Assembly (NCBI GenBank): GCA_002205965.3
Contig: NADL03000599.1
Span: forward strand, 62,001 to 126,000
DNA length: 64,000 nucleotides
From: Kappaphycus alvarezii
Taxonomy: Eukaryota; Rhodophyta; Florideophyceae; Gigartinales; Solieriaceae
Reading direction: 5' to 3'
Within the stretch, counting starts at the first letter, position 1. Each line of letters begins with the position of its first letter. The notes below the pieces were generated by a model that was given only the letters and a program-made list of their open reading frames with translations, ran no database searches and was not told where the DNA came from. This document shows positions 14,069 through 64,000 of the stretch, one piece after another. The translations under genes were made by a program, and so were the position numbers.

Positions 14069-14342
14069 TGAAATGCTTGTTTTCTGTTTACTTAACTTTT
14101 TCCTGTGTCGGCCAAGCGATAACTACCTCCCCATCCCTCGGACTCCTGCCGCCCTTACGTCCTCTTATGGAGGCGCCCGGTCCGGGTTTTCTACGCGTGT
14201 ACAGTGCAAGTACAGTGTACACTACCACCGTACACTGTACGAGTCCACTTCCCGCTCGTACAGTAGTACTGTATACTGTACGAGCACACCTGTCCAACCA
14301 AACAGCGACACTGCTAGTCGCGCCACACAAAACTCGCGCGAA
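14069..14342 (-). repeat. 3' LTR of the complete gypsy element
   Basis: Aligns with 20320-20552 from the shared TGAAATG start to the shared AAAACTCGCGCGA end. It is about 35-40 bp longer because of an extra GTACAG-type palindromic insertion (about 14240-14283). The C/T-rich block next to its inner end is the complement of a polypurine tract. Confidence 0.8.
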
Positions 14343-14889: not shown

Positions 14890-16144
14890 ATGGCTCGAAC
14901 GAAGCAACTCGCTCATTTGAGTACTGGCGGTCGCGCACCTCGGAAGAAAATTGCCACTAAGGCGGCGCGAGTCGCCCGCGGCGCAAAGGAGCCTCCTCCA
15001 GTGGTAAGGGCGAATGTGATGCGTTTGTTTTCGGAACTTTCAGACATCCAAAAAGAGCTTTGTATCGGTAGGGAGGAGCATAACACCTTCGTTATCCACA
15101 CAGACTCCTGTGGAATCCACCCGTATTCGCGTTTCGTGTTTCGTGTTAGGATTTACTCGATCTCTTCGGAACCCGCATTAAGTATTACGTAACTCACTAC
15201 GTCGGTGAAAAGGTCACGCGTGAGGACGCCTTTCAACTCGGTCTCATGGAATCCCAGCACGATCGGCGCGTTTACGATGTGTTAGGAGAAGGGGATTGGA
15301 TCATCAGTACGGTACGTTGGGACGACGACAACCGGACTTATCGAGCAGTCGAAACGGAAATTGGAGAGAAGCACTCGGTTTTGCTCTACCTTCTCGCGTT
15401 TTCCGGTCCCCAAGAGCCAGAGGTCACTCCATCTCCCGTCAGGCCCGATTCTCCTTTGGGTGCCAAGGTCGACTCAGTGCTGTGTCGAGCTTCCACATGT
15501 GGTGCCAATTTCATCCTGGTTGTCGTGTCCAGTTTCCATCAGTTCGTTCCAGGGAGCCACGTGCTTCCCCCGATTCTTTTTTGGCCTCTCCTCGCTCCGA
15601 TGTGGTATCCCGTGATGACACCGACCTATGCATCGGTTTCTCAATCTCCAACGCCCTCTGGCAGCTGTGTGCTCCTTCCTTCGCCAGAGAGTGGTTGGAG
15701 TACTACAAGAGTAACGATCGAGCTTTGAAGACCGACATCACGCGTAAGGGTCCCGTCAGGAGTTTGAGGGACGCCAAAAAGGATGCGCTTCCCCGTTCGT
15801 TCATTCTTCATCAAATCTTCAGTCTCGATCCGGGCATCAAGGAGACTTTGGCCTTTCCGGCGGTCCATGGTTCCTGTGTTGTTCATCACTGTGTCACAAT
15901 GAACACTGAGACCGGCCACATATGGAATCCATGCGAGCGCTTTGCTCTGGAACTCTCTCCTCAAGCTCTCCGGGAATGTTTCGGCGATAATTCTACGTTC
16001 ATTTCCGTCTTAGATGTCCGGGAGGCGGTGCTCATGACTGCTGGAAAGCGCAGAAAGCGGCGTTCTGGTCGCGACTCCTTGTCAGCTCGTAAGCTCGAGC
16101 GGAGGATGAAGGAAAACCAGGGAGACAGTAGCGCCGCTCCCTAG
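14890..16144 (+). pseudogene. Antisense ORF of the gypsy element: histone H3 tail mimic + unknown domain + papain-like Cys/His segment
   Basis: The ATG at 14890 opens a frame whose residues after Met match histone H3 positions 1-26 at 20 of 26 sites (ARTKQ, STGG, APRK, ATKAAR). Lys4, Lys18 and Lys23 are kept. Lys9 is Leu, Lys14 is Arg, and Lys27 is Val. No histone fold follows. An unrecognised domain continues, with frame changes near 15108, 15145 and after about 15400. The last 500 bp are one open frame. They hold a Cys box (DLCIGFSISNAL, Cys at 15629-15631) and, about 85 residues on, a His box (HHCVTMN, His at 15887-15889) followed by GHIWNP. That is the order and spacing of a papain-like cysteine peptidase. 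The C-terminus (from about 16045) is very basic and NLS-like. It is convergent with pol, and its last codon lies about 160 bp from the end of the integrase. The frameshifts make it a pseudogene unless they are sequencing errors. Confidence 0.75.
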
Positions 16145-16302: not shown

Positions 16303-17410
16303 TTAGCAGTGTAAATGGGTCGATCTCTTCCTACACGGGACAATCCGGCGCGCAGGAATTGCTTTCCTTGTAACGCGACAGGTGGAGGACATTAGCTCGT
16401 AGCGAGGGTGGTTCGCCTTAGTCACCCAGCACGGTCCATAGAATAATGAATCGAAAGCCGGCCACTTGCACCCCGTACTGAAGGCCGCACCGTGCGACAC
16501 CAACATTTTATCTTCAACCTTGAACTTTCTTACGTTTCCCTCGATCCTGCGGGTTCGCCAGATTTCTCCACCATACCAGCTCGCGTTCCAGAATCTCCTA
16601 AGGTCTCAATAAGCCGATGATAGGGACTTTTGTTACTGAGAAATGGTACCGATTAACTGGCCCGAATCTTGATATTAATTCCATATATCAGTCGGAAAGG
16701 GGAATGGGCGTCGATCGCGTCTGCGGTAACCATATAAGACATTGAGGAGGGCTTCTTCCAAGTCTGCCCCACCGAATACGATCGACGTTTTGAGGGCGTG
16801 CTTGATAGCTTCCACCATCCGCTCCGCGCGACCGTTTGTAATCGGCGCGTAAGGAAGCACCGCCTTCCACTCGACCCCCTTCTCTTTCGTGTACTCTTGT
16901 ACCGAACCCGCCATAAACGCAGTCACGTTATCCGAGACGCTTCTCTTGGCGGACCGAACGTAGATATTATCTCTTCCTCGATGAATCTCATCACGGTGTC
17001 GGCAGTAGAATCCGTCGTGGCCCACGCTATGAGCCACTCAGTCATATGTTTCACGGCAATCAGAATAAATCCTTTTCCTGTCTTCTAAGGCTTGAATTGT
17101 CCAGCGAAGTCCATCGAGAAGTTCTCCAAGAGTCCCGTAACGGAAGCTCTCATAGTCGAGTGATACGTCGGCAACCTCCTCGCATGCTTACACCCATCAC
17201 AACCTTGTACATACTCGGTGACATCACGTACACCCCAGGCCAACAGAATCGATCTCTCACGGACTTTATTGTCGATCCGGCGTCCCAGTAGCCAATATCA
17301 TCGTGAAAGGTGGCCATTATATCCGGTCTTTGACCGTGGAGGCACGACACGGAGTCAGTTCTTCTCGCGGCGAAAGAGGGTGTCGTTCCAGAGCATGAAA
17401 CTCTTTGCAT
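16303..17410 (-). pseudogene. Gypsy integrase domain
   Basis: Minus strand. An HHCC zinc-binding region sits at about 17330-17160 (FHDDIGYWDAG then Cys-rich). The catalytic core has Asp in a SMDFAG box (about 17120), Asp in SDNVTAF (about 16930) and Glu in NGRAERMVEAIKHALK (about 16830), so the DDE residues are present. The C-terminal module (16506 to 16303) reads FYGPCWVTKANHPRYEL and ends with ARR. This matches a GPY/F module without a chromodomain. The core spans several frames. Its role is to insert the cDNA into chromosomal DNA. Confidence 0.8.
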
Positions 17411-17456: not shown

Positions 17457-18834
17457 TTATCCGGCTAGGAACGGTGCTACGGCTAGCAGGTGCGGTTCCA
17501 AACCGTCCAAATTTGGGTCTGCCCAATCGACTTTTGCTACCAATCCTTCCATTATGTTTTCATCGTTTCTTCTTTCATCCATCTTTTCAGATCTTCGCGA
17601 AAGATAATCTGCCGCCCTATTCGCTAATCCCGGCCGATAATTTATCTCGAAGTCGTTTTCAGCCATCAAGTACATCCATCTTGCCAACCGCCCGTGAATA
17701 TATTTCTTCTTGAACGCAGTTTGAAGTGCTTGATGGTCTTTATAAACGACGAAAGGCTTATCAGAAATAAGGTACACTCGGAACTTCTTAAGGGCGAAAA
17801 AAAAGGCGGGTGGTTCTCGTTCTCTTGTGGAGTAGCGGCGCTCCTGGTCCGTCATCGTCGAAAAGCGAACTGAATGGGATGTAATTTCCCGCCTTCTTTC
17901 TTCTGCCAAAGAAACACCCCAAGGCCTGCCGAAGAGGCGTCTGTTTCCACCAAGAAAGTAGAATTGAAACCTGGAAACGCTAATACTGGAGGGCTAGTCA
18001 GTTTCCCCTTCAAGTATTCAAAAGCCTCCTGCATCTCCGGAATCTATTCGAAACCCTTCTTGACAGAAGTTGCCGCATGCTGCACTTCTGAGCTGTCGCC
18101 AAACCCCCTTATGAAACTTTGGTATTACCCCTCGAGCCCTAGAAAACTCCTGAGTTCAGTCACTCTTTCCGGCACCGGAGCTTCCACTATATCTTTGGTC
18201 TTGTCGGGGTCCACCTTCACACCACTTGAATTAACGATGTGACCAAGCAACTTCACTTCTGACTGAGCAAAGCTGCTCTTGGTAACCTTTAACTTCAGCT
18301 TCGATGTTTTGATCCTCCTGAACACTTCCTTGCAATGAGCTATGTGTTCCTCCAACGTATTAGAGAAAATAACAACATTGTCCACGCAAAACATAGCAAA
18401 CGGTAACCCGCGAAGGACCTCGTCCTTCATCCTTTGAAACGTCGCTGGAGCGCTCATGAGTCCAAACGACATTACCTCGAACTTGTACGTTTCATATCGA
18501 GAGAAAAATGTGGTCTTTTCCTTGCAAGTTTCGGACATTTTGACCTGCCAGTATCCTGTGTGAAGGTCCAATGTTGTGAAGAACTCTGCGCCAGAGAGTT
18601 CGTCGAAGATTTTTTCTACTTTCTGTAACGGCCAGCTACTTTCTGTAACGGCCAGCGGTCTGGCTTCATCACCCTGTTCAACTGACGGTAGTCGACGCAG
18701 AACCGGGACCTTCCGTCTTTCTTCGTGGTTATCACACCCGGAAAGAACCAGGCGTACCTTGATGGCGTAATAATTACAGCTTTCAATAATTCCTTCACTT
18801 CTTTCCTTATTACTTCTTTATGCTTCGGCGGCAT
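17457..18834 (-). pseudogene. Gypsy reverse transcriptase and RNase H
   Basis: The RT starts near 18834 (SRYAWFFPGVITTKKDGRSR and FCVDYRQLN boxes) and continues at 18571-18125 (MDLHTGYWQVKM, MSFGLMSAPATFQ). The catalytic YxDD box reads CVDN: the second Asp is Asn and the Tyr is Cys, so polymerase activity is lost. RNase H follows (VETDASSAGLG at about 17950, then DHQALQTAF and ADYLSRR at about 17600). A 20-bp tandem duplication (CTACTTTCTGTAACGGCCAG twice, about 18617-18656) sits in the early RT. Frameshifts separate the blocks. Confidence 0.8.
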
Positions 18835-19480
18835 TCAGCGGGCTTTCGGATTTATCTGAGTCTCGTCCGTCAGCTCAAAAGAATGTATCACCGGCACATG
18901 AGCAGGCTTAAGATCGTGAATGTCCCAAGCTATGACATCCGTTTCCTTGAGAGCAATCTCCAGCTCCTTCTGATTCTTCTTTTTGAGATGGTCCAGCTTC
19001 GAGGCCAATAGAGCCGAGCGGTCCACCTCCACTTTTAACTCTTTCTTAACTTCAGTCTTCGCAGAGCGAGGTAGATCAGGCTCGTACGGTTCCTTGTTAA
19101 TGATGGCTAAGACCAGGACTTGTTCGGTATCCGATCCACCATCACTTTCGATAGACGACGAGAAAGGGTGGAGAGATTCTTCATCGTCCTTTGGGGGGGT
19201 GAAGTCCTCAGTGTCCGTCTGAGCCCCATTGATTCTGGACGGCTCATTGAAGAATGGTAACACAACCTCTTCTTCTCTCATAACCAAAGTGACGTGTTGG
19301 AGTGCACAATCAATGCGCGTCTGGAGAGCTTCCAGAGTCGTGCTTCCAACAATAATGTCGAACGGGGCATTGTTGACCACCAGGAACTCTAGATGCACGA
19401 CTCTTGACCCATAAGACACCGGCACTCCTTTGAGCTTACCAATAACCTTGGCGACAGTTACGTCTGCTAGGGGTCTTTAG
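18835..19480 (-). pseudogene. Gypsy aspartic protease remnant and acidic linker
   Basis: One 196-codon open frame. FDIIVGSTTLEALQ matches the C-terminal hydrophobic-Gly box of retropepsins. The active-site Asp-Ser/Thr-Gly box that should lie upstream is not found. The 19480-19510 region is instead filled by short A/T-rich direct repeats (TCTTTAGGG). An acidic linker follows, then the run into the RT. Confidence 0.6.
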
Positions 19481-19499: not shown

Positions 19500-20320
19500 A
19501 GAAATCTTTAGGGTATTTCTCTATCTCTATGCGGAATATATGGGCAACGGCTCTCCCCGTGGCCCTTCTGGTTCCAATAGCTGCAAAAATAATCTGCTTT
19601 CATCTTCACCGGAGGCGCCGTTCCGTCTAATTGTTTCTTCACGAGGAACGACAGTTCAGCGAATTGGTCAGCCAACTTATCCACCTTGTTTTCCAGATGC
19701 TGAGAACTACGAACATCTGGCCTTTTGAGGATCTTCGTCGTCGTTCCACTAGATTAAATTCCTTGAATTCATTCTCCGCAGAACGTCTCCTGTCCACCCA
19801 CGAAGTCCGCGATTGCCCTTTTGAGCCCTTTGTAGTCCGTAGGGGCTCTGAAACTCACAAACTGCCCCATATCTTGATTTTCTGCCACTGCTTTCCGAAG
19901 AAGGCCAAAGTAAGCGGTATCATTGAATCCAACTCTCTTTTATAGAGCATCTAACTGCGCAAGGGAGCCTGACAAGTCCTTCGGGTCCAACCTAGCGTTG
20001 ATAGCCTTCTTTAGTTCTTCTTCCGGCGTCAGAGTCTTCCCAAACTCCTCGATGCGCTTGGCCTTAACGGTCGAATAGTCCTTCGCCTCCTCCGTCAACG
20101 CCCCGTCTCTCGCGAAAACCTCGTAGTAACGCTCAAACGCCGCGCCCTCGAGGTGGCAAAGGATCTGGAGCCCCTTTTCTAGGTCGCTTTTCCCGCGCAA
20201 AACTAAATTCTCGTACGCGAAAAGCAAGCGCGCGATTTCGGAAGAAGGTGAACCGTCGAAGGACACGTGGGATCTCGGGGAATCGTTCATCTTCTTAGTC
20301 GACCTTGGATGCGGTACCAT
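19500..20320 (-). pseudogene. Gypsy gag with damaged zinc knuckle
   Basis: The ATG at 20320 overlaps the PBS (the TG of the start codon and the next G form its first bases). The 126-codon first frame includes IARLLFAYENLVLRGKS and a long helical capsid-like region. A CCHC knuckle is visible near 19600 as C-S-Y-W-x4-H-x4-C, with the second Cys changed to Trp. The C-terminal half is in other frames. Confidence 0.75.
20303..20319 (-). other. Primer-binding site of the complete gypsy element
   Basis: Minus-strand TGGTACCGCATCCAAGG begins directly after the LTR terminal CA with no spacer. It is identical over 14 bases to the site at 2067-2080. It overlaps the gag start codon, leaving no untranslated leader between LTR and gag. 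Confidence 0.65.
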
Positions 20321-20552
20321 GAAATGGTTGTTTTCTGTTTACTCAACTTTTTCCTTTGTCGCTCAAGAGGAACCTACCTCCCCTTCCCCAGGACTCCTGC
20401 CTCCCTCTCGTCCTCTTATAGGGGCGACCGGTCCGGGGTTTCTACGCGTGTACAGCGCAAGTACAGTGTACACTACCACTGTACACTGCACAAGCACACC
20501 TGTCCAATCAAACAGCAACGGTGGTAGTCGGCGACACAAAACTCGCGCGACA
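20320..20552 (-). repeat. 5' LTR of the complete gypsy element
   Basis: 233 bp, TG...CA. It shares with the 3' LTR the block CGGTCCGGGG, TTTCTACGCGTGTACAG, the GTACAGTGTACACTACCAC palindromes and the AAAACTCGCGCGA end. The two LTRs have diverged by many substitutions plus an indel, so the insertion is old. Confidence 0.8.
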
Positions 20553-25636: not shown

Positions 25637-26084
25637 GAGGGTAGATCATAATAATGTGGAGATTAATTTAATTGCTGGAAGCGTTATGTGGATACTGAAG
25701 TAGTGTGTCGGTGACCTGACACAAGGTTGACATTTGTGTCGTATATGTGACACAACAACTCATAGTGCGACTCTGGAACATAGTTAATATGTTACAGATA
25801 TCTGTAATGAACACAGGTCAAAGTATTCCTTGCATGATGTCGTTGAGTTTCAGAGGGTTGACAAAAAATTGCAACTATTGGATGCGTATTGCGTAGTCTC
25901 GTCGACGCATAATTTTCAGTTGTCTACGGAGTATGGTGATCGGTGCACGTTGCAAGGAGTAATTTACACAAAGTGTAACGTTATACCTTTCCGAAACATC
26001 CCTTCAAGGGTTGCAGAAAGGGCAACACAGTTCGAAGTTCAGATATCACAGTTTGCAAAGTTCAGGTGTGCAGTGAGGCGGGAT

Positions 26085-27196
26085 TGTGTCGGGATGACGA
26101 CACAACAACTTTGTATTGTGTCAGCCCCTCGACACATACCATAAGGTCTGAAGAAGAACTGCTTTTTAAGTCTGTGTCGGGTGGATGACACAATATCTAT
26201 GTACAAATTGTGTCATCCACCCGACACAAGTTGTGTAAACCCCTCGACACATACCATAATTAAATTTTTTATATATTTTTTATATATTTATAATTTTTTA
26301 CCATAACTTTATATGAAGTAGAGGTTCTTAAAGTCCGTGTCTGGGAGATGACACAATACCTATGTACTGTGTCATACCCTCGACACATACTTGAAAGTGC
26401 ATGTTATAGAGAAGCTCGGTGCTTGAAGTCTGTGTCTGGGAGATGACACAATACCCATGTATTTTGACACCCCCTCAACACATACCATAAGGTGTATACG
26501 AATTACAGCGAATCTTAAAGTCTGTGTCTGGTTGGGGGATAACACAACACCTATGTAATGTGGCCTTCCCGACACATATCATAAGATGTATATGGAGTAG
26601 GGTGGTGGCTATAGTCTTGTGCCACACTGTATGAGTAGGCTATTAGGTTCAGTTTGTGTCGTGGGAACAACACAGTACCTATTTTTTGTGTCACCCTCGA
26701 AAAATAAGGTGTGTGTGCGCTAGTAGTTTCAGGTTGTGTCCTGTGGGTGACACAGTACATAAGTATTGTGTCATATCCATGAAACATACAATAAGGTATA
26801 TACGGAGTACGTTAGTGGGTTCAGGTTATGTCGTGGGAGTGACACAGTACATAGTTACTGTGTCACCTCCATGACACATACAGTTAGGTATATATGGAGT
26901 AGGCTAGTGGTTTAAGGTTAACCTGTGTCACCCGCACGACACAATTGTGTCAATTGTGTCGTGGGGGTGAGACACAATACATAGGTACTGTGTCACCTAC
27001 ATGACACATACAGTAAGGTATATGTGTAGGCTAGCGGTTTCAGGTTTTATCCTGAGGGTGACACAGTACATAGGTATTGTGTTACCTCAATGAAAATACA
27101 GTGAGGTACATGTGTAGGCTATTGGTTTAAGGTTGTGTCGTGGGTGGGACACAGTACCAATATACTGTGTCATCCCCAGAACACATACCATAAGGT
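26085..27196. repeat. Array of about 11 nested-palindrome units (TGTGTC-N8-GACACA pairs)
   Basis: Each unit of about 90-120 bp holds two 20-bp imperfect palindromes, TGTGTC-N8-GACACA. The second is the reverse complement of the first, so the pair forms a larger palindrome around a GTAC...GTAC centre. It is followed by a conserved tail (ACATACAGTAAGGTATAT... TAGTGGTTTCAGG). The clearest pair is 26173-26192 and 26209-26228, exact reverse complements over all 20 bases, 16 bp apart. Other units start at about 26092, 26333, 26432, 26521, 26645, 26735, 26825, 26945, 27045 and 27133. No open frame spans the array. Confidence 0.85.
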
Positions 27197-27283
27197 ATAT
27201 TGCAGTATAATGATGTTTGTCAAATGAAAATCAATTTATCATGCTGGCAGATATCCACAGAGAGCTGCTCGTTACCCTTCTAT

Positions 27284-29650: not shown

Positions 29651-30090
29651 ACAGGCTTGCTGGCAACCCGTCGACAGCGTATTTAAAATATTTGAAAAGT
29701 TTTAAAAGTTTCGAAATAGGGCTGAAATATTTCAAACCGTAACGCTGGAATACTCCCCAAAACAACCGCTGTGGGGGCTGTCACGGTTGTGTAAGCTCGC
29801 GAAACTGGTACATCCTGTCATCCAGAGTTGGCTTCGAGGTGCTGTGAGTATTTTTCATTACTTTTAGGGGTGCCTTTGTTAACTTCCAAAATTGACCCGG
29901 CCTGGAGGGGTATTTGAGCAGATTCACGACATGACAAGTTTTGGGCAATCCTCTGCTCATAATCCATGTCACCCACCCACAGCATCGAGATTCGAGGAAT
30001 TTACCATTAACGGTGCGAGCTGCTTAGCAGTTTAAGCTGAGATCAACTCTGAATTCGCAAAATTTGCTGCAATTCCTTTCGGCTAGCACC

Positions 30091-30714
30091 ATGGCCGCCT
30101 TCCTCTATCCTGTTCCTAGGCGCCCTCTTCTCACCCCTTCCTCTCTCCATATCTCAGGATGTAAAACCACCCCATCCTGCTTGACCACAACTCAAAAGCC
30201 GCTCGTATCTTTAGCCGCCCTTGCAACTGCTGCTGCCCTACTTTTGCAACAACCATACTCAATTTCCCACCCGAGTTCAGCCTTCGCGGTTAGTGGAGGC
30301 GGCAAAGATTATGCCTCGCAAAACTGGGACGGATCCACATTTCACGGCGACTATTCTGAGAAAGACTTTTCTGGCGGCCTCTTCCGCGGGTGTGACTTTC
30401 GCGGAGCAATCTTGCGTTCCGCCCGATTCTTCAAAGCAGAGCTGCGGGAAGCGGATCTGACGGGTGCGGATTTGTCTTTTGCAACAGTTGAAGCGGCCAT
30501 CTTGAGGGATGCAGTTTTGAGGGATGCAGTGATGGTCGGAAGTTATGTGTCAGATTCCGTTCTAGATGTGGCAGCAATTGAAGGGGTAGACTTTAGTGAC
30601 GCCCTCATTAGTCCAGCCAGTGTTGTAAGCAAGTTATGCGCAAGAGAGGATGCCACGGGCGTGAACCCTACCACAGGAGTCGGTACGAGAGACAGTTTGA
30701 TGTGCCCAGATTGA
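30091..30714 (+). CDS. Thylakoid-lumen pentapeptide-repeat protein, 207 aa, intact
   Basis: The ATG at 30091 is chosen because the upstream in-frame start is not ATG and the leader then makes sense. Residues 1-37 are Ser/Thr/Pro/Arg-rich like a plastid transit peptide. Residues 38-52 are a hydrophobic Ala/Leu helix, followed by an Ala-Phe-Ala cleavage site at 64-66, which is a lumenal targeting signal. Pentapeptide repeats of A(D/N)LXX type (CDFRGA, ADLTGADLSF, AILRDAVLRDAV) run over residues 82-175 and would form a right-handed beta-helix. The C-terminus keeps two cysteines (183, 205) around GVNPTTGVGTRDSL, a pattern seen in lumenal pentapeptide proteins of plants and algae (the 15/17.4-kDa type). 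Its precise role is unknown. It is intronless and undamaged, and it is the best evidence that the host is photosynthetic. Confidence 0.85.
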   Translation: MAAFLYPVPRRPLLTPSSLHISGCKTTPSCLTTTQKPLVSLAALATAAALLLQQPYSISHPSSAFAVSGGGKDYASQNWDGSTFHGDYSEKDFSGGLFRGCDFRGAILRSARFFKAELREADLTGADLSFATVEAAILRDAVLRDAVMVGSYVSDSVLDVAAIEGVDFSDALISPASVVSKLCAREDATGVNPTTGVGTRDSLMCPD

Positions 30715-33545: not shown

Positions 33546-34081
33546 TGCTCGAATCGGCGGGGGGTGAACCAGGATGGTGGTGGCATTGGTGGGGTGGGCA
33601 GTTAGGAAGGCTGCGATAGAACTGTGGAATAATGCGATTCCGCGGATGGGGAGCGGAAGTCGGGGTCGTTGTTTGGCGTGGGAATAGTAGTGGCGGTCCA
33701 ATCGCCGTCCTTCTATTGGACTGGGGATCGCGTCGTGCCGCGTTCTGGTTAGAATTGAGAAGCTACTATTGGGTGAGCCCGCGAGGACGTTGGGGGCGGA
33801 GGGACCAATTCCGGGGAACGATCGGAACTGGATACTGTGCTCAGGAAAAAGCGAATGAGTTGTTTGGTTTTAACAGTGAGGGACCCGTATGTTAGCTAGC
33901 ATGGACATGTGGATATCTGAGCTGTTGGGCGGTGCGAGGCGATGAAAATCGGGCTGCGCGGGCTCAGTAAAGTGCGAAGGGCACATAAAGTTTTGCCTCC
34001 AAAATGGATTTATAGAGTCCTGCCACCTTATTTTGAGAGCCCTTTCCCAAATAAACTCGTGGCAACAGCTCCCCTCCTACG

Positions 34082-34141
34082 GTACGTATTATTGCGCTGT
34101 GCTATTCCCATTTGCACTGATCCCAACATCTCCTTTTGCAG
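34082..34141 (+). other. Candidate 60-nt GT-AG intron in the 5' UTR of the Maf gene
   Basis: Strong donor GTACGT at 34082 and acceptor CTCCTTTTGCAG ending at 34141, with CACTGAT as a plausible branch point. It lies 56 bp before the chosen start codon. Confidence 0.55.
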
Positions 34142-34197
34142 ATCCAAACGGGTTTGAGCGCCATCAAGCTGGCTGCCGATCCCGTAACTTTTTCATT

Positions 34198-34812
34198 ATG
34201 ATCGTGGAATATCTCCCTCTGCTCAAAACAAAGATAATCATCCTAGCATCTCAATCCCCCCGGCGCAGTGAAATTTTGAATCTCATGGGCCTCCCTTTCA
34301 TTACTCAACCCTCCAAATTCGAAGAAACTCTCGACAAGGCTCAATTCCCATCCCCTCAAGCCTATGTTATAGCGAACGCTCATGGCAAAGCTGCAGACGT
34401 AGCTAGCTCCCATCCAAATCACAATCTAATAATTGGCAGCGATACCGTTGTCGTTCAAGACGGTAAGATTCTAGAAAAACCACGCTCTGAGGGTGATGCG
34501 TTCAATATGCTCAGATCGCTTAGTGGGCGCGAGCACACTGTCTACACAGGTGTGTCACTAATTGCAAAGGGGTGTGAGGCGCGTAACTTCTGCGAGGCCA
34601 CAAAAGTGTGGTTTATGGATATGAGTGACGAAATGATCGCCGCCTACATCAAGACAGGAGAACCTATGGATAAGGCGGGGGCGTATGGCATTCAAGGCAA
34701 GGGTGGGGTGCTTGTGCGCAAGATTGATGGATGTTTCTTCGCGGTGATGGGCCTTCCTATGCATGCAGTCGCGAGGGAAATAGCACGGCTCTGCGAGGAC
34801 AGGTTGTTATAG
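34198..34812 (+). CDS. Maf-like nucleoside triphosphate pyrophosphatase, 204 aa, intact
   Basis: The ATG at 34198 places the conserved start 15 residues before the first motif. The longer upstream open frame has no ATG and probably includes a UTR intron. Motifs: SQSPRR at residues 18-23 (phosphate binding), IIGSDTVV at 79-85 with Asp82 as catalytic base, EKP at 93-95, GREHTVYTG at 110-118, AGAYGIQGKGG at 160-170 and VMGLP at 183-187. The family hydrolyses non-canonical or excess nucleotides (dTTP/UTP, m7GTP or CTP) to the monophosphate and pyrophosphate and is normally cytosolic. The set of motifs is complete and the length is typical (about 200 aa). No transit peptide is visible. Confidence 0.9.
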   Translation: MIVEYLPLLKTKIIILASQSPRRSEILNLMGLPFITQPSKFEETLDKAQFPSPQAYVIANAHGKAADVASSHPNHNLIIGSDTVVVQDGKILEKPRSEGDAFNMLRSLSGREHTVYTGVSLIAKGCEARNFCEATKVWFMDMSDEMIAAYIKTGEPMDKAGAYGIQGKGGVLVRKIDGCFFAVMGLPMHAVAREIARLCEDRLL

Positions 34813-36186: not shown

Positions 36187-37475
36187 TCACAAGGTTGTTC
36201 CCTCCGCATCATCCGCCGCAATCTTCTTCCCACGGCCCGCGCGGTTGCCTTTTCGATCTTCTGCAGTCCCTTGGCATGCCTTTTCCAAGTTTTGTGGAAC
36301 CCGCTCCCTCACAGCCCGTCGCACCATGCTCACTGGACACAACGAGCCAAACGCCTCGCATCCCTTGATCACCACCTCCTCTCCCTCATACCGCAATCGC
36401 ACCATTGCTTCTGTATTCGGCCGCCCATCATCCCATGTCTCCAGTACCACATCCGCTGCAAACTCCGGAATTCCACGATTCGCTGAATCCTCAAAACAAC
36501 CCATGAGCGGTAGAAGCGTCGTATCATGCCCGGAAAAGATCTTCACCCGCCAGGGTACGGACTTGTGCTTCTCGGCATTTTCCAGCAGTTCCTCAACAAA
36601 CTGCATATCAGTTGACCGCAACTCAAACCGACATACGCAAATGCGAAAGAAACATCAACAAACTCGCGTTAGTTCGCTCCCTTATCTCCAACTGCGCGCT
36701 ACCGCCCCGAAACAAACGTAGAAACGAAAACACATACCCGTCCCAGAGACAACCCCCAGCTCTCCCTTCCATATATCCTTAGGATTTGCATTTCCGCCGC
36801 CCTGTCCGCTACTCCCTCCCATCTCTTCGGCTCACATCCATTCTCCCTCACCGCAATTGCCACATCCCTAAGCATGATCACCTGATGGCTGGCCCCCACT
36901 CCCCGCTCCCCCCCCAACACCTCTTGCGCCTCCTCTGTCAACACCTCCTCCCCCCGATACCCGCGATGCACCCCCATTTGCAAATCAAACAATCGATTAC
37001 ACATACGTCTCATCCCCACCATTGTCTCCATCGGCCGCGCACGAACCTCAACTGCAACCTCCCGCCCCAATTCCCCTTTCCCACGCGCCGGAAACATCCC
37101 CGACAAGGTCGCCATCGCAGACTCCACCGTCCGTCGCATCGCCGTCGACCGCACCGACACCTTGTCCTCATCAAATCTCTCCGGTAAAAACTCCCCATAT
37201 CGAGCACGCAGACGGGCCCCAAGCGCAAACATCTGCGCAGCCCCTACCGGCGTTAACTGTCCCGCGTAACATGACGCCGTGTCCGACGGTTCGAACCGAT
37301 GAGGTGTGTACGGATACAATGACACCGGCGGCAGACGAGGCGTGAAGGTCAAAAAGGTTCGAAACGCAGCTTGACCGCAGATCGATGGGAATGAAACCGC
37401 GCGCGCAGGAGAACGTGCCCCGTGCCGATGGATGATCTGCAGTTGTACAAGTTTGCGGCCGCACTCGTCTTCCAT
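36187..37475 (-). CDS. Histidine acid phosphatase, 383 aa, two exons (36738-37475 and 36187-36600)
   Basis: ATG at 37475. The exon 1 signature is RHGARSP at residues 17-23 (His18 is the phospho-acceptor). LTPVGAAQMFALGARLRARYG and RSTAMRRTVESA follow, matching the N-terminal half of the family. Exon 2 holds GHDTTLLPL at residues 270-278 (His271-Asp272, proton donor). The two are joined by an intron of 137 nt (36737-36601) with donor GTATGT and acceptor TATGCAG, phase 0; without it a stop is met within 12 codons. Family members remove phosphate from lysophosphatidic acid, phytate or sugar phosphates. The RHG motif very near the N-terminus and the absence of a signal peptide suggest a cytosolic or mitochondrial ACP6-type enzyme rather than a secreted one, unless a further upstream exon exists. 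Confidence 0.8.
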
Positions 37476-37779
37476 AGTGGGAGGCAAGAGGTTGGTAGGG
37501 GAGGGGGCGCGTTGCTTGCGGAAGTTTCAAGTAAGGTCTGGCACTTGCCGTGCAAACTGGTGCGATAGGTACCTGCTAGGTGAAGATGGGCTTTGGCGCC
37601 CAGGATCTACTTCAACTGCCGCCGTCGATGGAGGGGCTGGCACCTTTCGCACCGTTCCACTTACAAAGCGTGATATTTACGCTGCTTGTTGTACGGGAAG
37701 GGAGCGGTGTGGGATCTAAGATGAGTCCACATTGTACACACGCTTTCGGCCCGGTTGCCGACTGCATATGATTCTATTA

Positions 37780-41498: not shown

Positions 41499-42760
41499 AT
41501 GCGGACGAAGCAGTTGGCTAGATTGACCACGAGAGGCAAAGCGCGGCGGAAGAAGATTGCTACTAATACGGCGAGGATGTCGAGGGAAGCGGTCGCCGAA
41601 GCCCAGTCCAAGATACCTCCGCAGACAAGGGCCCTTCTTGGGAGATCGGATATTATTAAGATCAAGTACATTTCGTCGAACGAGCCAGAACTCGTTGTCT
41701 TCACCTCAGAGTCCCCGCGCGTAACAAGGGTTCGCGCTTGCGACTTTCCATCTTTATTCGGAAATCACATAATGGACTCAGTTTCCGCCTTGACTACCAG
41801 GGAGCTTACAAAGGAGATTTTTTGCCAATTGGGCTTGACCGAATCCCTTTACGACTCCCGTACGTACAAGAAAGTGTCGGAAATAGACTGGATCGTCAAG
41901 TCTATAGTATGGGAAGAGAAGGAAGGGTTAAATGAGGGAGAAGATGAGGCCACCAGTGAATTTAATACTATCCTTCGGTACAACCTTTCCTTTGAGGGTG
42001 GAAGCAGCTTCTTTATGCACGATATCGACGAAGAGGGCCTTTTCACGCTAGGTTAGGACAATAGTTGGGAGGAAATCTTTGAAATCGACAAATATTGCCA
42101 GGAAACCCCTGCCGGAAGCTTCTTCTTTCTTTTACCCCCTCTCGGGAACCCCGCGCTGACGAAACCTGGTACCGCTCTTTTCCGCTCCTCAAGACCCCTT
42201 TCATTGACCAGATGGAAGGGTGTATTGGCGCTTCCATCGCAAATGAGTTGCGGGAATTAGGGAAAGAGGGCGAAGCGAAGCGTTAGTTTGACTACTTCGT
42301 GTCAAATATGGCTCGACGCCTCACGAATTACTTGAGAAAAGGCCGTATCCGAGACCTACAGGACATCCAAAGGCACTTACCCCATATGGAGATTGTGTTC
42401 GAAAAAACCCTGCTGATGTACCCTTCTATTAAATCTGCGTTGGCCCTCGACCCCGCCGTCTATATCGTCTCTATAGAAGTTTCCAACGACGTCAGGCACT
42501 GCGTTGCGATGAATACTGAGACGGTTCACCTCTTCGGCTCCGCTGAAGCTTTTGTTCTTGAGATATCCGAGAAGTCCTTGGTTGAGTGCGTGGGCAGAAG
42601 TTCAACTTTCATCACCATACTGGAAGTTCGAAAGCTGTCAGTGAGAAGTGGACAGGCATCGAAGCGTCTCTGCCGTCGTGGCAGGACTAAATCGGGAATC
42701 CTTAAAAGTCGCGGCGCGCAGTCGGAGGTGAAGGAGAAACCGAGTAGCTCCAAGCAGTAG
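41499..42760 (+). pseudogene. Second antisense H3-tail mimic ORF of the gypsy family
   Basis: The ATG at 41499 takes the place of the Ala1 codon, so the product would start Met-Arg-Thr-Lys. H3 positions 2-26 match at 16 of 25. Thr6 is Leu, Lys9 Leu, Gln19 Lys and Leu20 Ile, exactly as in the first copy. Lys27 is Met. Lys4, Lys14 and Lys18 are kept. The first frame is open for 185 codons to 42056 and covers the tail and the unknown domain (CQLGLTES and DWIVKSIVWEE align with FQLGLMES and DWIISTVRWDD in copy 1). The second part (from about 42083, another frame) has the Cys box GCIGASIANEL (Cys at 42221-42223), a TAG at about 42284, then an open frame with the His box RHCVAMN (His at 42497-42499), ending in a basic Lys/Arg-rich tail. 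Convergent with the integrase relic at 42980. Confidence 0.75.
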
Positions 42761-42979: not shown

Positions 42980-43880
42980 CTAATTTTGCAGGCTTTTGGG
43001 GCGGACCACAAAAAGAAACAAACGCCTGGCGTGGATAGCACGTCGGGAGTGACTACAACCATACGAGGTCAGCCAATACCTTGGGTAATCCCCTTTCCAT
43101 ATCTGGCACGGCCCGAAGTATCTTGACTTGAGAGTTGGCCCTTGAACTGTCGTTTGCAAAGCCGCCCCATGTGCAACAGGGACCCATTCGCCGACGTTGA
43201 ACCCTACAGGTTCCGCAAATGACTTTTTTCTCAATACACGCTCTTGTTCATCCCTTATTCGTGTTCGGAGTGCCACGTTTGGTAACAACTCCAATCGGCG
43301 ATGGCTCTCCGAGGGGTTGGAAATTAGAGCTATCTCATCTGATGATTCCATGCTCGGCACAACTCCGTATATCAAGTCGAACGGGGATGCTCCGCAGGCG
43401 AGACGACGACGACGGTAACCATACAAAACGTTCTGCAGACTCTCCTCCCAATCCACTCCCTGGCCTAGAACCATTTTCTTGATGGTAGCCTTGGTGGTGC
43501 GTACCATCCTCTCTCTCCTACCATTCTACATGGGCTCCAAGGCCAGAACAGTGCTCCAAGTGATTCCGTGTTTCCCCAAAAAGGAAATAAGAGAAGCAGC
43601 AGTGAAGCATCCCGCGTTGTCGGATACAATGGTCTTCGGGGGACCAAAAAGGAACAAAATTTCCTTCTCTATAAACTGAGCAACAGCTCAGGTGGAAGAA
43701 TCTCCGGTGGTCGAAGCGATTGGACAACCCGTTAAATGCTCTATCGTAATGAGCCAAAACTTCTTCCCGCCCTTCGAATTCGGAAGCGGCCCGGCGAAAT
43801 CGACCGAATGTTTCTCAAATAATCCTTGGCTTTGCCTTGTCTGAGACCGCCATCCGGCTTCCCCAAGCATTAAACGTCGC
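42980..43880 (-). pseudogene. Gypsy integrase, second copy, truncated
   Basis: SVDFAGPLPNSKGGKKFWL (first Asp, about 43800), TIVSDNAGCF (second Asp, about 43630) and RRERMVRTTKATIKK (Glu, about 43510) give a complete DDE set. QNVLYGYRRRR and the C-terminal SRYFGPCQI...YPRYWL...HARRL module (43200-42990) match the complete element. Two in-frame stops lie near 43687 and 43530. Everything upstream of the zinc region (RT, protease, gag) is missing. The copy is joined at about 43.9-44.1 kb to unrelated sequence. Confidence 0.8.
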
Positions 43881-47329: not shown

Positions 47330-49293
47330 GCGTTGCACAGAAACGTGCGGAGGGTATTCGTAAGTTAACTACGGACGCGGGCGGCGGGTGGAAACCTGTA
47401 GCGCCTGCATTACTTGGGCCTGCATTACTTGGAGACTAAACGCAAAACGGGTAGCGAAGTCGCGGAGCTCCTGTTGAGGGGAGGAACCGCGACGGGAAGC
47501 AGTGAAGGAAGCAAGGCGGCGGAAAAAACCCTTGCCGTCGTCGCCCAAGGCGCCATAGATATCAATCCCGACGGGGGAGAGTAGGATATCGTTTTGGTTG
47601 CAGTAAGTGACGTAATGACGATGTACCTCGCGCTTGGCGAGTGTCGCGGCAGCGCCTGCGGTGACCGTACTTGGCGAGATGTGGCGGCGTGCGGAGGGGT
47701 GGGCAACAGTAATGTCGACGGCGATATCGGTACAGTGAAGCCCGTATGCAGCTGGTATGTAAATGTCCATTCGTAACGCGGGGGGCTCCGAATGCAGAGA
47801 CGAGTTGGGAACCTGGTAGAGGAGCGGATGCTCGACGAGGGCGACGATCCCAACTTCCTTACAATAGCGGCCAAGAACGCTGCGGATGACGTGATGTCGA
47901 CGAGTCATTCCGTGTTCGTATTTGCAGGTCAACGCGTGTTGACCGCTTGGATCTAAGACGTGTGCGATGTCGGCCGAGCGCCGGAGCGCCGAGAGCATAC
48001 CGGAGAGCGAGTAGATCCTGGGAATAGCGCGATGCCGAGAGGGAGAGCCAGTGCGACTTTCCACACAGAAGAGGAAATGTACGTACCGCGGTGGGGTGAG
48101 GAAGCGAAGAGAAAACAGAGGAGGCGGAGGATGTGCGCACGGAGAGGAGCCGTGCTCGGTCTTGTGCTGCCGCGGACAAGAACAACCTATCGGACTTCGA
48201 TAGCATGGGTTCAGTTGTGATCGCAGACTGGAGCCTTTCGCCGGGGACCGGCGATGAACAATTCTCGAAAAGAGCCATAGCTGTAAGCGACGAAGACAGC
48301 TGCGGGAGGCGGGAGGATAAGATCGAGATGGCGGACCGAGGGATCTCTTCCAGGTGGCGGTCCTGGGAAAGAGTCAGCAGGTCGGAGATAAGTCAAAAAG
48401 AATCAATTACAGATGCTACGTAAGCAGCCTCGGTAGTGTCTCAAGTATGCAGGAGACCTAGACCGCCCACTGAGAAGGGGAGAGAGGCCTGAAGCCAGGC
48501 CCGATCCGGGAAGGGCAACTGCAATTGGTGGAACGCTTCCCTCTGCATCTGATCGAAGCTGGCTGCGAGTACCGCAGATTGCGTGGAAGGAAGAGTACGT
48601 AGCAAGTGCATGACCTTGGAGGCGTTCACACAGAAGCGGTGTAAGTGTAAAGCCAATTGAGCATCATCCAAGTCCCGAAGGGATTGGAAGATACGGTCAA
48701 ATGCGGTTTGGCGGCCTGCTAAAAATTGGGAAACAAAAGGGTCCGAGCCAATCGAAGATCCCACCACGATGAAACCAAGGGGGTAGAAATGGACAGGGAA
48801 GTGTCAAAGGGGCGTGGAAAGGGGAGAAGCCATAAACTTGGGTCTTGGCAAGGTTGAACTTGAACCCGAGTGGACCTCCTTCAAGCTGGATGAAACGGAT
48901 GGCAGCGGCGGCTTGGGACCGAGAAAGAACAATGTTACCATCATCTGCGTACCAAGCGTTCAGGGCAGGTGAGAAGTTCTCCTGTAACGATAGCAAGAGA
49001 GGATGGAGAGCCAGGGCAAAGAGCAAGGGACCGGGGGGATCACCTTGCTGAGTGCCCTCTGAACTACGAACATAGTAGGGTCCGAAAGCAAGCTCTGTAG
49101 GAGCATCGTAACAAGAGTGTACCCACCGTGCGCGGCCTGGGGCATGTGTCCGTACGGCTTCCAGAGTGCGCTGGCGGGAGATGCAATTGAAAGCGTTGCG
49201 AGCGTCGATCTGGAAATAGAGGTGGTCGTGGAACTCGGATCTCTGGGAAAGACACAGCGTTATTAAAGCGCCTAAACTCAGTTCCTTCCCCAT
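47330..49293 (-). pseudogene. LINE ORF2: reverse transcriptase and C-terminal endonuclease-like region
   Basis: RT: QIDARNAFNCISR (motif A, about 49210), TQQGDPPGPLLFALALHPLL (motif B, about 49040) and AWYADDGNI (motif C with both Asp intact, about 48930). A frameshift near 48760 leads to the post-RT helices (LHLHRFCVNASKVMHLL). After a gap, 48064-47369 carries HVLDPSGQHALTCKYEHG (Cys/His box), RMDIYIPAAY and VDITVAHP. This resembles the C-terminal region of the other LINEs and probably represents a restriction-like endonuclease. The ORF ends at 47369 and is followed by a 3' UTR to about 47285. The element is 5'-truncated with several stops. Confidence 0.8.
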
Positions 49294-59589: not shown

Positions 59590-61430
59590 CAAAGATTTAT
59601 TGATATACTATAAAAGATTTGCAAGTCTTTTCTTCGCAGCTTTCTTTTGCTCTAAACGGTTTCTAATTATCCACCTGCGTTCTTTTAGAGTTCTGGGTTG
59701 GACGAACTGTTCTCCGTAGCACTCGACGCCGTCTTGAGCCTTCGACCTTGCAATTGCATCCATCCAGGCCCTTCTTCGAGCTTGCTGCGCACCTTCTTGG
59801 GCTCTTCTTAACTCCCCATTCAGGTCCTTCTCTACCTGTTCTTCACGCCTCTTTGCTTCGAGAGACTTCAGCAGTGCAATGACATCTAAACTTGATACCT
59901 CAATACCCATTGTAGTGTCAACAAATCCAGCCTTCACTTTAGGACCAAGAGGGCCTCCCCGCATCATTTGAGCAGTATTCATCCTTGTCGTCTGAAAAAC
60001 TTCGCTGACAGGTATCATTTCCTGACAGCGAGTTGACTTTCGAACGAGTAACCCTGCAACAGAATTCAAGTTGAGAGGCCAAAAGCCAGCCTTTTTAAAC
60101 CCGTCCATGACATTTTTTTGCGTAGCAGCCTTCTTAAATCCTACTTGAATTGAATTCCAAACATATCTTTCATGCAATTTTGCCAACCCTGTTGACAACT
60201 GACATCCATATGTTAACGAAAATTTCATGACGGCTTCATTCGCATAATGCCTGAAAGGCCCAAAAACTGATACATCCAAAGGTTGCAAGCGGTCGCTTGT
60301 ATGTGCTGGCAACGCAATTGTCGCAATTCGTGCCCTTCTCATCTCCTCAATTGCACTTGACAGCAAATGGGAGCGGCATGCGTCAAAAAATAAAACAATC
60401 TATTCTTCAACAGGATGTAAAGCTCGAACGGATTCGATGAAGCGCGACACCCATTTACGGAACACATATCCATCGAAACTGCCAGCATCACGTCTCAGAA
60501 ATGCAACCCAGCTTTCAGGCATCAAATTCGACATCCTCTAAGTACGTATTCCATCACTTAGTCTCGGTTCTTGAATACCCTTGAAAACTACGGCAGAGGC
60601 CACGCATTCGCCAGTACCACTTACAGACAACAGAACAGATATGCGGTTCCCGTACTGAAAACTAACCCTGGGCCGAGACGCTTTAACTCCAAAAGATGTG
60701 ACTACACGCTTCCCCTTCTTTGCAAATAAATCCCGCCCAGGAGAAAAGCCTGATTCATCCAGATTGTAGACTTGACGAGGGGCCTTGATGTTGTAAGTCC
60801 TGTAAACCAACTCCACTCGTGCAAAAAAGTTAGTTAATGTTTCAGCATTAAAACATTGAATAAGGAGCTGATCCACAGGACGACCAACGTAGGAGCTAAG
60901 CTTGTCAGAATTGCCTTTCAGAAAGCTACGAATCCAGAAAAGAGAGAATTTAGCCTCAATTAGGCCTCCAAATGCTTTCCCATTCCTTGCTAATTAATCA
61001 CAGTACTGACCTGCAATGTTTCACAAGTCTTCATTTGCCAAAAAGGGCCCTTTTGTCAGTCTAAGTGAAACTCAACCAACAATTTCTTTCTCTCGTTCCA
61101 ACGAGAAAACTGTGGCACCGTTCGGCCTTTCCGAGGTGATAAAGAAAGAACCATTCTTGTTTTGGCTTATCTGTGGTTCTGCCCGTTTGCTCCAGCGCTG
61201 CAAACTTGATTTGGAAATCTTGAAGAGTCCATTGCCTGTGGTGACACAGACGCTCCAACAAGAATCACCCGCCCAGATTCTTTCCAGTGCTTCGAACAAG
61301 GCACTGATGGCATTCAGCGCCATCTCCTTCGTCGCAAAAAAGGAATGTGTCATTACTGTGTTCAGAGGTGTATCTGAATTTGAAGTTGAAGGGATCAAAT
61401 AACAAGCCACCAATAGATGGTGTCGTGTCT
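59590..61430 (-). pseudogene. pogo-like (Tc1/mariner superfamily) transposase, recently inactivated
   Basis: The N-terminal DNA-binding part (61413 to 61072) has the helix-turn-helix-like FKISKSSLQRWSKR. After a frame change comes NGKAFGGLIEAKFSLFWIRSFLK (about 60950). The catalytic DDE_1 domain runs in one frame from 60876 to 59608: VYNLDESGFSPGRDLFAKKGKRV (first Asp), a TAG at 60538-60540, a TAG at 60400-60402, FFDACRSHL (second Asp) and HTSDRLQPLDVSVFGPFR (third Asp). The C-terminal 100 residues are charged and coiled-coil-like. All three acidic residues are intact and only two stops interrupt 420 codons, so inactivation is recent. TIRs were not found by eye. Confidence 0.8.
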
Positions 61431-62403: not shown

Positions 62404-64000
62404 TTGGGAAACATTGATACAGATAAGGACTCCTTAGTACTTGATTCAGGGGCATCTGATCATATGGTGTGTAGTAAGGAGTGGCTACAGGCGGTTCAAG
62501 AAATCGTACCACGTGGCATCGTCCTAGGAGACGGAAAGATATTTTATGCGACACAATCAGGCACCCTTCTACTGCGAATTGCAGTAGGACGTCGTGAAGA
62601 GATGTTCGATCGAACAATTGTGTTACGCATAGTCTTGTTTTTCCCCGAGCTTCAAACATCGCTTATAATGTGTTCGATGCTTTGCGGTCAGGTCCATGAT
62701 ACCAGCTTTAGAGGGGCTAAATTTAGGTGTATCCTGAATGAGACGACGATGTTTCAGGACAAACTAGTCCATGGTGTCTGCAGAATTGAAGAGATTCCAG
62801 TGGCACCTGAAATTGTTTGTGCTACTGCGGGAAGAGATGACTGCAGTTCGGATTCAGAATCAGCACTGCAACTATAGCATCAGCGAGTCGGCCATGCAAA
62901 TATAACGAGCATCAAAAGATTGTTAAGTTCTGGCGCTGTCACTGTCAAACACGAACCGAAGTTTCGTTCAACAAACTGGTGCGACAGCTGTCTCAAATTG
63001 AAACAGGTTCGGCAAACCCCACGTACACATCATCAACCATTCGCAGAGTAAGGGTGAGGTAATTCAATCAGAAACATGTGGCCCTATTTTTGTAAAATCG
63101 TTTCCAGGTTGCCAGTGCTTTATTTTATCTGTCGATGAATACTCAGGCCTGATTCGCATCCAACCGATCCAACGGAAAAAAGACGCCCTGGGCCAGTTTA
63201 GACTATATATAGCTTGGCTAAAGAGGCAATTTGACTGCAAAATCAAACGGTTGCATAGAGATAATGGAGGGTAATATATCGCTTTCAGGGAGCATGGAAT
63301 TGAGCACACCACCGCGCCGACTTACAGTAAAACCGTGCCAATGTCGTGCCAATCGCACTATCGATGAATTTTCAAGAACAATTCTTCCGCATGCGGGTCT
63401 TGCGAAGGTATTTTGGGCAGAGGCGGTTTTCCATGCTGCAAAAATCAAGAATAACTTCTTCTGCCCTCGTAACTCCTCACGTACCTCCCTGGAGATTTTG
63501 ACTGGCAAGAAGCAGGACATATCGTTTTTCAGGGTGTTCGGATCACTAGGATGGTACCATGTACGCAAGTAACTACGCGGAAAACTCGACCAAAAATCAC
63601 AACTTGGTGTTATTATCTTCTGTTTACACAGCCTTCAGTACAAATTATGTATTACGAGCCGGCGTGAGGCTTTCATCACTCGGGATATCACAGTGATCGA
63701 GAATAGGTTCCCTCCACGCCAAAAAAACATTCAACAATTTGAGTCACCTGAGAGTCATATAGAAGAAGAGTATTTGATTAATGACGAAACTGACGATGTG
63801 CACCGGCGAACTACCGAGGATATCGATGTAGAAACCAGCCCTGGTCTTCTAAAAAGTGCCACAGAGAGTGGCAGTGATCTTACACAGCTAAGTCCCGAGA
63901 TTTTGAAATCTGGAATAGATACTCTAGAGCATGTACCCTTGTCTGCACAGGAATGGAACGATCATGTTTCGTGTAATGGTGCAAAATGCCTAGCTACTGT
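62404..64000 (+). pseudogene. Ty1/copia pol: protease, integrase, start of RT; runs off the right edge
   Basis: The protease active site LVLDSGASDHMVC is intact (about 62436). After a TAG at 62875-62877 the same frame continues with the integrase zinc region HQRVGHANITSIKRLL and CDSCLKLKQ (HHCC). Core: SVDEYSG (Asp, about 63130), LHRDNGG followed by a stop where Glu is usual (Asp, about 63260), then LAKVFWAEAVFHAAKIKNN (63400-63455). From about 63660 EAFITRDITVIENRFPP and an acidic linker lead towards the RT outside the window. The order protease-integrase-RT identifies copia. Stops and frameshifts throughout. Confidence 0.8.

Follow-up and report, generated by a model that had tools for sequence, protein, structure and literature searches.

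Short H3-like peptides are used by viruses as histone mimics, as in the influenza NS1 tail and the ARKS motif of SARS-CoV-2 ORF8, and SNAG-domain proteins occupy LSD1. In H3-EZHIP and EZHIP, Met or Ile at position 27 inhibits PRC2 and Lys or Arg does not, according to the available part of the source (PMC6513997). Among mobile elements, the VANC proteins of Arabidopsis VANDAL transposons are anti-silencing factors that bind noncoding regions of the element's own DNA (PMC10398659, available part). Plant LTR elements carry antisense additional ORFs between pol and the 3' LTR, termed aORF-3R (Grande gene23, RIRE2, Retand and PvRetro13), some products of which are nuclear and whose function is unknown; the available part of this review gives no clear likeness to other known proteins and does not contain the words histone, chromatin or cysteine (PMC7264820).

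Here we describe an antisense gene of gypsy elements in Kappaphycus alvarezii whose product begins with a histone H3 tail. The gene is real, widespread, old and selected; its antisense slot is known, and its content is new.

Two copies of the gene and their carrier elements

The window, by which we mean the whole 64,000-nucleotide stretch of Kappaphycus alvarezii DNA analysed, holds two copies of the gene. Copy 1 and its carrier comprise the following features.

14069–14341, minus strand: 3' LTR of the copy 1 gypsy element, paired with 20320–20550
14890–14973, plus strand: putative H3-tail mimic of copy 1, 28 codons (MARTKQLAHLSTGGRAPRKKIATKAARV), phmmer match to H3 chains at E = 7.5e-07
14890–15192, plus strand: open frame holding the copy 1 tail, ending early at a stop
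15150–15500, plus strand: copy 1 middle domain, shifted into another frame, homologous to copy 2
15500–16144, plus strand: copy 1 C-terminal domain in a third frame, with the motif CIGFSISNAL ... HCVTMN ... WNP
16306–17037, minus strand: integrase, from the end of the catalytic core through the C-terminal part, lying antisense next to copy 1, rve_3
18128–18817, minus strand: reverse transcriptase of the copy 1 element, Pfam RVT_1 at E = 4.4e-23
20320–20550, minus strand: 5' LTR of the copy 1 element, paired with 14069–14341

The carrier is a Ty3/gypsy element: paired LTRs (87% identity over 175 bp and 88% over 59 bp, with the likeness beginning at TGAAATG in both) surround gag-pol, with gag judged by eye, and on the minus strand the reverse transcriptase lies upstream of the integrase (Pfam rve_3, E = 1.1e-4 on 16678–17037, below the curated cut-off), both between the LTRs. 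Copy 1 is antisense between integrase and 3' LTR, which is the aORF-3R position. The original prediction, made from the DNA letters, had proposed this arrangement, together with an H3 tail at 14890 matching in 20 of 26 residues and the absence of a histone fold, and all of these stand. Our own count of identical residues is also 20 of 26, and phmmer against the PDB set aligns the tail with H3 chains (E = 7.5e-07) over residues 1–31 only, so the likeness to H3 is not due to chance; the match of the copy 2 tail (E = 6e-4) excludes chance likewise. A Pfam search of the tail piece returns no histone match and the H3 match stops near residue 31, so that the gene has an H3-type N-terminal tail and lacks the histone fold of H3.

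The prediction erred in treating 14890–16144 as one ORF. A stop at 15192 closes the frame of the tail, and the homologous body is spread over two other frames, showing that copy 1 is broken. Its middle domain is matched in 29 of 29 other loci (L002–L030) and has a weak Pfam match, under the cut-off, to TT1_Tal (E = 0.0095).

The second copy, which the prediction did not mention, lies at 41499–42757, antisense to a Ty3/gypsy integrase.

41499–41579, plus strand: putative H3-tail mimic of copy 2, 27 codons, with Ala1 missing, K9 replaced by L and K27 by M, phmmer match to H3 at E = 6e-4
41499–42053, plus strand: copy 2 tail and middle domain, open
42083–42757, plus strand: copy 2 C-terminal domain, split by a stop into two open pieces
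42983–43687, minus strand: integrase pieces antisense to copy 2, open at 42983–43525 and 43529–43687

Copy 2 is broken too, because no single open frame spans its C-terminal half. The integrase piece at 42983–43525 has no Pfam match of its own and is 43% identical over 61 residues to the C-terminal part of the copy 1 integrase (L001); the piece at 43529–43687 was assigned by eye.

Elsewhere in the window, positions 1–2091 are part of another related gypsy element (1–216 resembles 18787–19002 at 77% and 1894–2091 resembles 20133–20330 at 70%), and a minisatellite-like array with units of about 88–92 bases occupies 26084–27207. Likely host genes encode a pentapeptide-repeat protein (30064–30714), a Maf-like protein (34033–34812) and a histidine phosphatase of branch 2 (36699–37487). 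Further mobile remains are a reverse transcriptase fragment (48697–49293), a DDE_1 transposase fragment (59608–60366) and a Pol beta-barrel domain (62404–62877).

Distribution in the genome and selection on the tail

We searched the 336 Mb genome assembly (884 contigs) with three queries. The first 100 residues of copy 1 match at least 150 places, the best 150 of 439 candidates having been scored; copy 2 has at least 151 matches, with the best 150 of 498 candidates scored; and for canonical H3 the best 150 of 399 candidates were scored. The H3 query recovers five H3 loci of 87–97% identity (L031–L035, of which two are not in a single frame; L040 covers the first part of L035), along with two divergent H3-like loci, each split into two pieces (L036–L039). 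A further 140 rows start at residue 1 or 2, most of them ending short of residue 60. The host genes L031–L033 diverge from one another just past residue 30, with ARKSAPAS, ARKSAPAT and ARKSAPIT (oriented sequence, from 1501 on), indicating that the host has more than one H3 variant.

From 140 collected loci, removal of L031–L040 and of the duplicates L045 and L055 leaves 128 tail-only loci, copy 1 included. The genome thus holds at least 128 tail-only loci besides the true H3 genes, which fall into ten multi-locus clusters (111 loci) and 17 singletons; two clusters were divided by eye to give 12 named groups. Antisense integrase and/or reverse transcriptase lies downstream in 19 of the 20 long-flank loci that we picked for diversity, and neither at L076. 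As far as read, the bodies are related in groups A, B, C, D, E, G, H, I and J. A pyrimidine-rich leader resembling that of the host H3 genes is present in groups A, G and H, and not in all groups. Tail genes also occur as pairs on opposite strands, of different type at contig C111 (L069, about 3 kb apart) and of one type at C609 (L097 and L098, about 2.3 kb apart).

The number of tail-only loci and their antisense pol neighbours bear out the expectation that the gene recurs in gypsy families and is not a local capture of H3. These comparisons support the view that it is an accessory gene of a large Ty3/gypsy clade, recurrent and selected in many families.

Not every relative carries it. Among the best 150 of 3420 candidate matches to the integrase C-terminal part, 61 show a gene match on the expected side at a distance of up to 2.5 kb, and 1 shows it on the wrong side. 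The comparison used a partial gene list made from an incomplete set of copy 1- and copy 2-type matches; against this list, 89 of these 150 close integrase matches have no match to the antisense gene. In a sample of six of the 89, the 3' end of the gene persists as about 155–168 nt in L141 and L146, about 75 nt in L144 (where, by eye, a leader-like stretch is joined to it) and about 45 nt in L145; likeness in L143 is confined to the stretch between gene and integrase, and nothing of the gene region was matched in L142. These remnants make gene loss look secondary in four of the six sampled loci, and gene-poor copies look common. The view that close relatives never had the gene is weakened to that extent. 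The original prediction had set its case against the chance that other copies of the family lack the ORF: many copies carry the gene, whereas some related copies lack it or most of it.

By eye, LINE-like coding sequence precedes the gene remnant in L141 and L146 and is also present in L142 and L143, a pattern that would fit the spread of a single disrupted subfamily. This LINE-like sequence resembles, again by eye, an ORF at 47369–48064 of the window.

In a pol tree of 21 rows the loci of one group stay together, with the exception of group B, which lies near E, J, M and C by pol and resembles A by tail and body. This mismatch suggests that the antisense gene may have been swapped between gypsy lineages, in a tree with weak support (0.277 at the deep node).

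Between groups (62 loci hand-picked from the 128), synonymous divergence of the tail is saturated, with a mean pS of 0.79 against a pN of 0.31, and pS is higher than pN in every one of the 66 group pairs; the search for loci relied mostly on tail similarity, which lowers pN. As a partial check on this bias, we considered 65 long copy 2 matches of at most 47% identity, in which 52 alignments reach residue 3 or earlier, 9 begin at residues 4–17 and 4 begin later. Compared with three host H3 genes, the tail has a pS of 0.63–1.00 and a pN of 0.16–0.26. Saturated synonymous sites with so low a pN point to an old acquisition held close to H3, and rule out recent capture from host H3.

Within groups, after removing pairs below 60% nucleotide identity as frameshifted, tail dN/dS is 0.25 in A, 0.19 in B, 0.07 in C, 0.29 in D, 0.21 in E and 0.45 in J, compared with 0.39, 0.60, 0.53, 0.54, 0.70 and 0.36, respectively, in codons 29–80. 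The predicted dN/dS below 1 along the tail is therefore found in all six groups (0.07–0.45). In the five groups with more than one pair, the tail (0.07–0.29) is more constrained than codons 29–80 (0.39–0.70); the single J pair goes the opposite way, its tail being no more constrained than its body. Across 13 between-group pairs of six natural ORFs, identity is 50–79% in the tail and 31–39% in the body. Over its 28 residues, counted from the initiator Met, the tail is more strongly conserved than the body, and the substitution ratios indicate that it is kept by selection.

The C-terminal domain contains, in order, a Cys (C[IMV]x[AF][SA]), a His (H[CAF][VA]) and an Asp (D[PC]), a pattern read in the natural frames of groups A, B, C, D, E, G, H and I and not read in F, K and M. 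Cys, His, Asp is the usual order in papain-like thiol proteases, and by this motif the domain appears thiol-protease-like. With six members as queries, profile searches of Pfam, NCBIfam and PDB yield no credible match for the body, papain-like homology included. The protein ends in a basic stretch. We found no relative in phages (queried with the N-terminal part of copy 2), plasmids (L004 tail), viral_contigs (C-terminal domain and host H3) or genome_contigs (C-terminal domain), collections that to our knowledge contain no red algal genomes.

Residues kept and altered, and readings of the tail

To describe the tail we counted 19 lineages: the majority for each of the 12 groups, and seven individual loci, namely L103, which belongs to the A cluster, and six of the 17 singletons. 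The remaining 11 singletons resemble members of named groups. Q5, P16 and R26 are kept in all 19 lineages, M0, A1, A7, S10, T11 and G12 in 18, and T3, G13 and A24 in 17. K23 is kept in 15 and K4 in 14, the K14 position is Lys or Arg in 16, and STGG is intact in 14.

The two ARKS motifs are altered in almost every lineage. ARKS at 7–10 is intact in group E only (1 of 19 lineages; 3 of 128 loci) and ARKS at 25–28 in M only (1 of 19; 2 of 128). R8 and K9 are each kept in 9 lineages, both in E only, exactly one of the two in 16 and neither in 2; this mutual exclusion is the second strongest of 378 residue pairs (Fisher p = 0.0055, with related lineages treated as independent). K27 is kept in 7 of 19 lineages, and together with S28 only in M. 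Replacements are L, R or M at position 9 and V, I, T, M, R or S at 27. Position 27 is Met or Ile in B, H and L101, Val in A, G, I, K and L133, and Lys or Arg in C, D, E, J, F and M.

Parsimony on an 11-group pol tree requires 5 changes for R8, 5 for K9 and 4 for K27, compared with 7 for Q19, 6 for T22 and 5 each for K14, K18 and R2. K9 and K27 thus change no more often than these other positions, and the alterations of ARKS may reflect drift where the sequence is not needed.

An in-frame stop lies 0–6 codons upstream of the tail in 12 of 14 loci (D 3/4, F 1/1, B 6/7, I 2/2), showing that in these B, D, F and I loci the tail is truly N-terminal.

The reading we prefer, to which we give about an even chance, is that the product is an H3-tail mimic that would dock on host H3-tail-binding proteins, evade silencing marks and weaken silencing of the element. 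From the sequences we infer expression, nuclear location, binding, enzymatic activity and an anti-silencing effect. The encoded protein would be nuclear and chromatin-directed, with three parts: H3-tail mimic, middle domain and thiol-protease-like domain. Removal of Met would expose A1-x-T3-(K4)-Q5 ... S10-T11-G12-G13 ... P16-R17 ... K23-A24-A25-R26 as in H3, and the protein would use this free H3-like N-terminus to dock on host factors that recognise the start of H3. With ARKS altered at 7–10 and 25–28, the sites methylated for silencing, the mimic could not be converted into a silencing signal; L, M, V or I at K9 and K27 may also jam a methyltransferase in the manner of H3K9M and H3K27M. Silencing of the element would be weakened as a result, and the thiol-protease-like domain might work on a chromatin substrate. 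A tail that is selected while its K9 and K27 silencing sites are altered suggests that the gene probably helps the element to deal with silencing chromatin, and the altered sites favour a mimic that evades methylation there. Engagement of chromatin enzymes or readers by the gene product, which the original prediction proposed, is plausible; neither the altered ARKS sites nor the thiol-protease-like motif figured in that prediction. In the host, three matches to the E(z)-type CXC domain exceed the family cut-off (two at E = 4.1e-7), and a search for Pre-SET, as in H3K9 methyltransferases, finds no match, likewise none in any control genome.

A more elaborate version of the mimic reading is tentative, and we think it more probably wrong than right: a stealth H3 tail on an element's enzyme, read as H3, proof against K9 and K27 methylation and poisoning methyltransferases in some families, would deliver a thiol protease that strips or cuts a silencing component. 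If so, the dozen or so tail types would be the trace of an arms race between the elements and the silencing enzymes of the host.

Residues 1–28 of H3 are a known import signal read by H3 importins. The tail could accordingly be a borrowed nuclear import signal that binds an H3 importin and carries the gene product or pre-integration complex, making chromatin mimicry beside the point. The retention of K23 and of a basic residue at position 14, and the basic C-terminal stretch, fit this account, which we nevertheless consider rather unlikely. An import signal need not sit at an initiator Met with Ala next to it, a short basic stretch would suffice and would drift, the non-basic residues T3, Q5, S10, T11, G12 and P16 are retained, and D-type tails lack both K18 and K23. 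The position of the tail at Met and Ala, with stops just upstream in B, D, F and I, favours a free H3-like N-terminus over a plain import signal.

It is unlikely that the tail is simply a poison of the H3K9M/H3K27M type, in which L or M at 9 and V, M or I at 27 would sequester SET enzymes so that H3K9me and H3K27me are lost. Groups A, B and G and singleton L101 do combine L or M at 9 with V, M or I at 27. The B cluster has Met at 27 in 22 of 30 loci and Ile in 7, and copy 2 has Met. EZHIP, a non-histone K27M mimic, offers a precedent, and by analogy the replacements in A, B and G may be of, or near, the methyltransferase-inhibiting class, although Val at 27 and Leu at 9 are outside the residues covered in the available part of the source (PMC6513997). 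Lys or Arg at 27 in C, D, E, J and F and Arg at 9 in C, F, L121 and L139 mean that this mechanism could hold for some families only. Poisoning cannot be general, because K27 is kept in C, E, J and F and K9 in D, E, H, I, J, K and M; as a model for all families it is ruled out by the lineages keeping Lys or Arg at 9 or 27.

H3 clipping is known in the region near residues 27–28, which is where the H3 likeness of the tail ends. Since tail and Cys/His/Asp domain share one gene in the groups read, the tail might be a substrate-like propeptide of its own thiol-protease-like domain, or mark that domain as an H3 tail protease. With catalysis predicted from the motif and no credible Pfam, NCBIfam or PDB match, we regard this as improbable. 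Still less probable is that the tail tethers the integration complex of the element to H3-binding factors and so directs the insertion site, a role that the original prediction also suggested and that nothing specific supports, given that the gene adjoins the integrase but lies on the opposite strand and is not fused to it. That the tail is a captured host H3 fragment without function is barely credible: the window copies are broken and canonical H3 genes are present in the host, yet across groups the amino acids are retained despite synonymous saturation, bodies are related in most groups, and had the capture been recent, its synonymous sites would agree with those of host H3.

Comparison with known systems

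Among the open-licence papers considered, a set outside which most subscription literature falls, none describes, by title and the start of the abstract, an H3 tail on a gene of a retroelement. For the antisense accessory genes of gypsy elements no function has so far been known, and a selected H3 tail in about a dozen groups points to a chromatin target, which makes the question of function testable with peptides. The tails also amount to a natural mutational scan of the H3 tail, with A1, T3, Q5, STGG, P16 and R26 kept and R8/K9 and K27/S28 altered.

The gene occupies the same slot and strand as aORF-3R. The difference is the H3 tail at the start of the protein; none is noted for aORF-3R in the available part of the review (PMC7264820). 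VANC resembles it as a transposon-encoded accessory protein directed against silencing, an activity that for the H3-tail gene is predicted, and the available part of the VANC source mentions no histone-like part (PMC10398659). Like EZHIP, H3K27M and H3K9M, the gene product presents an H3-like peptide, with Met in the place of K27 in group B, and like EZHIP it is a non-histone protein. EZHIP mimics the K27 stretch only and is a mammalian host gene, whereas here all of H3 1–27 is copied at the N terminus and several families have Lys or Arg at the position in place of Met or Ile.

With viral mimics and SNAG-domain proteins the gene would share the use of an H3-like peptide to engage H3-binding factors, SNAG also lying at the very N terminus. 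Those are short motifs, and the viral ones keep an ARK-type sequence, whereas here the copied stretch is 28 residues long and its ARKS motifs are altered. The gene would thus add retrotransposons to the users of histone mimicry, by means of a whole tail rather than a short motif.
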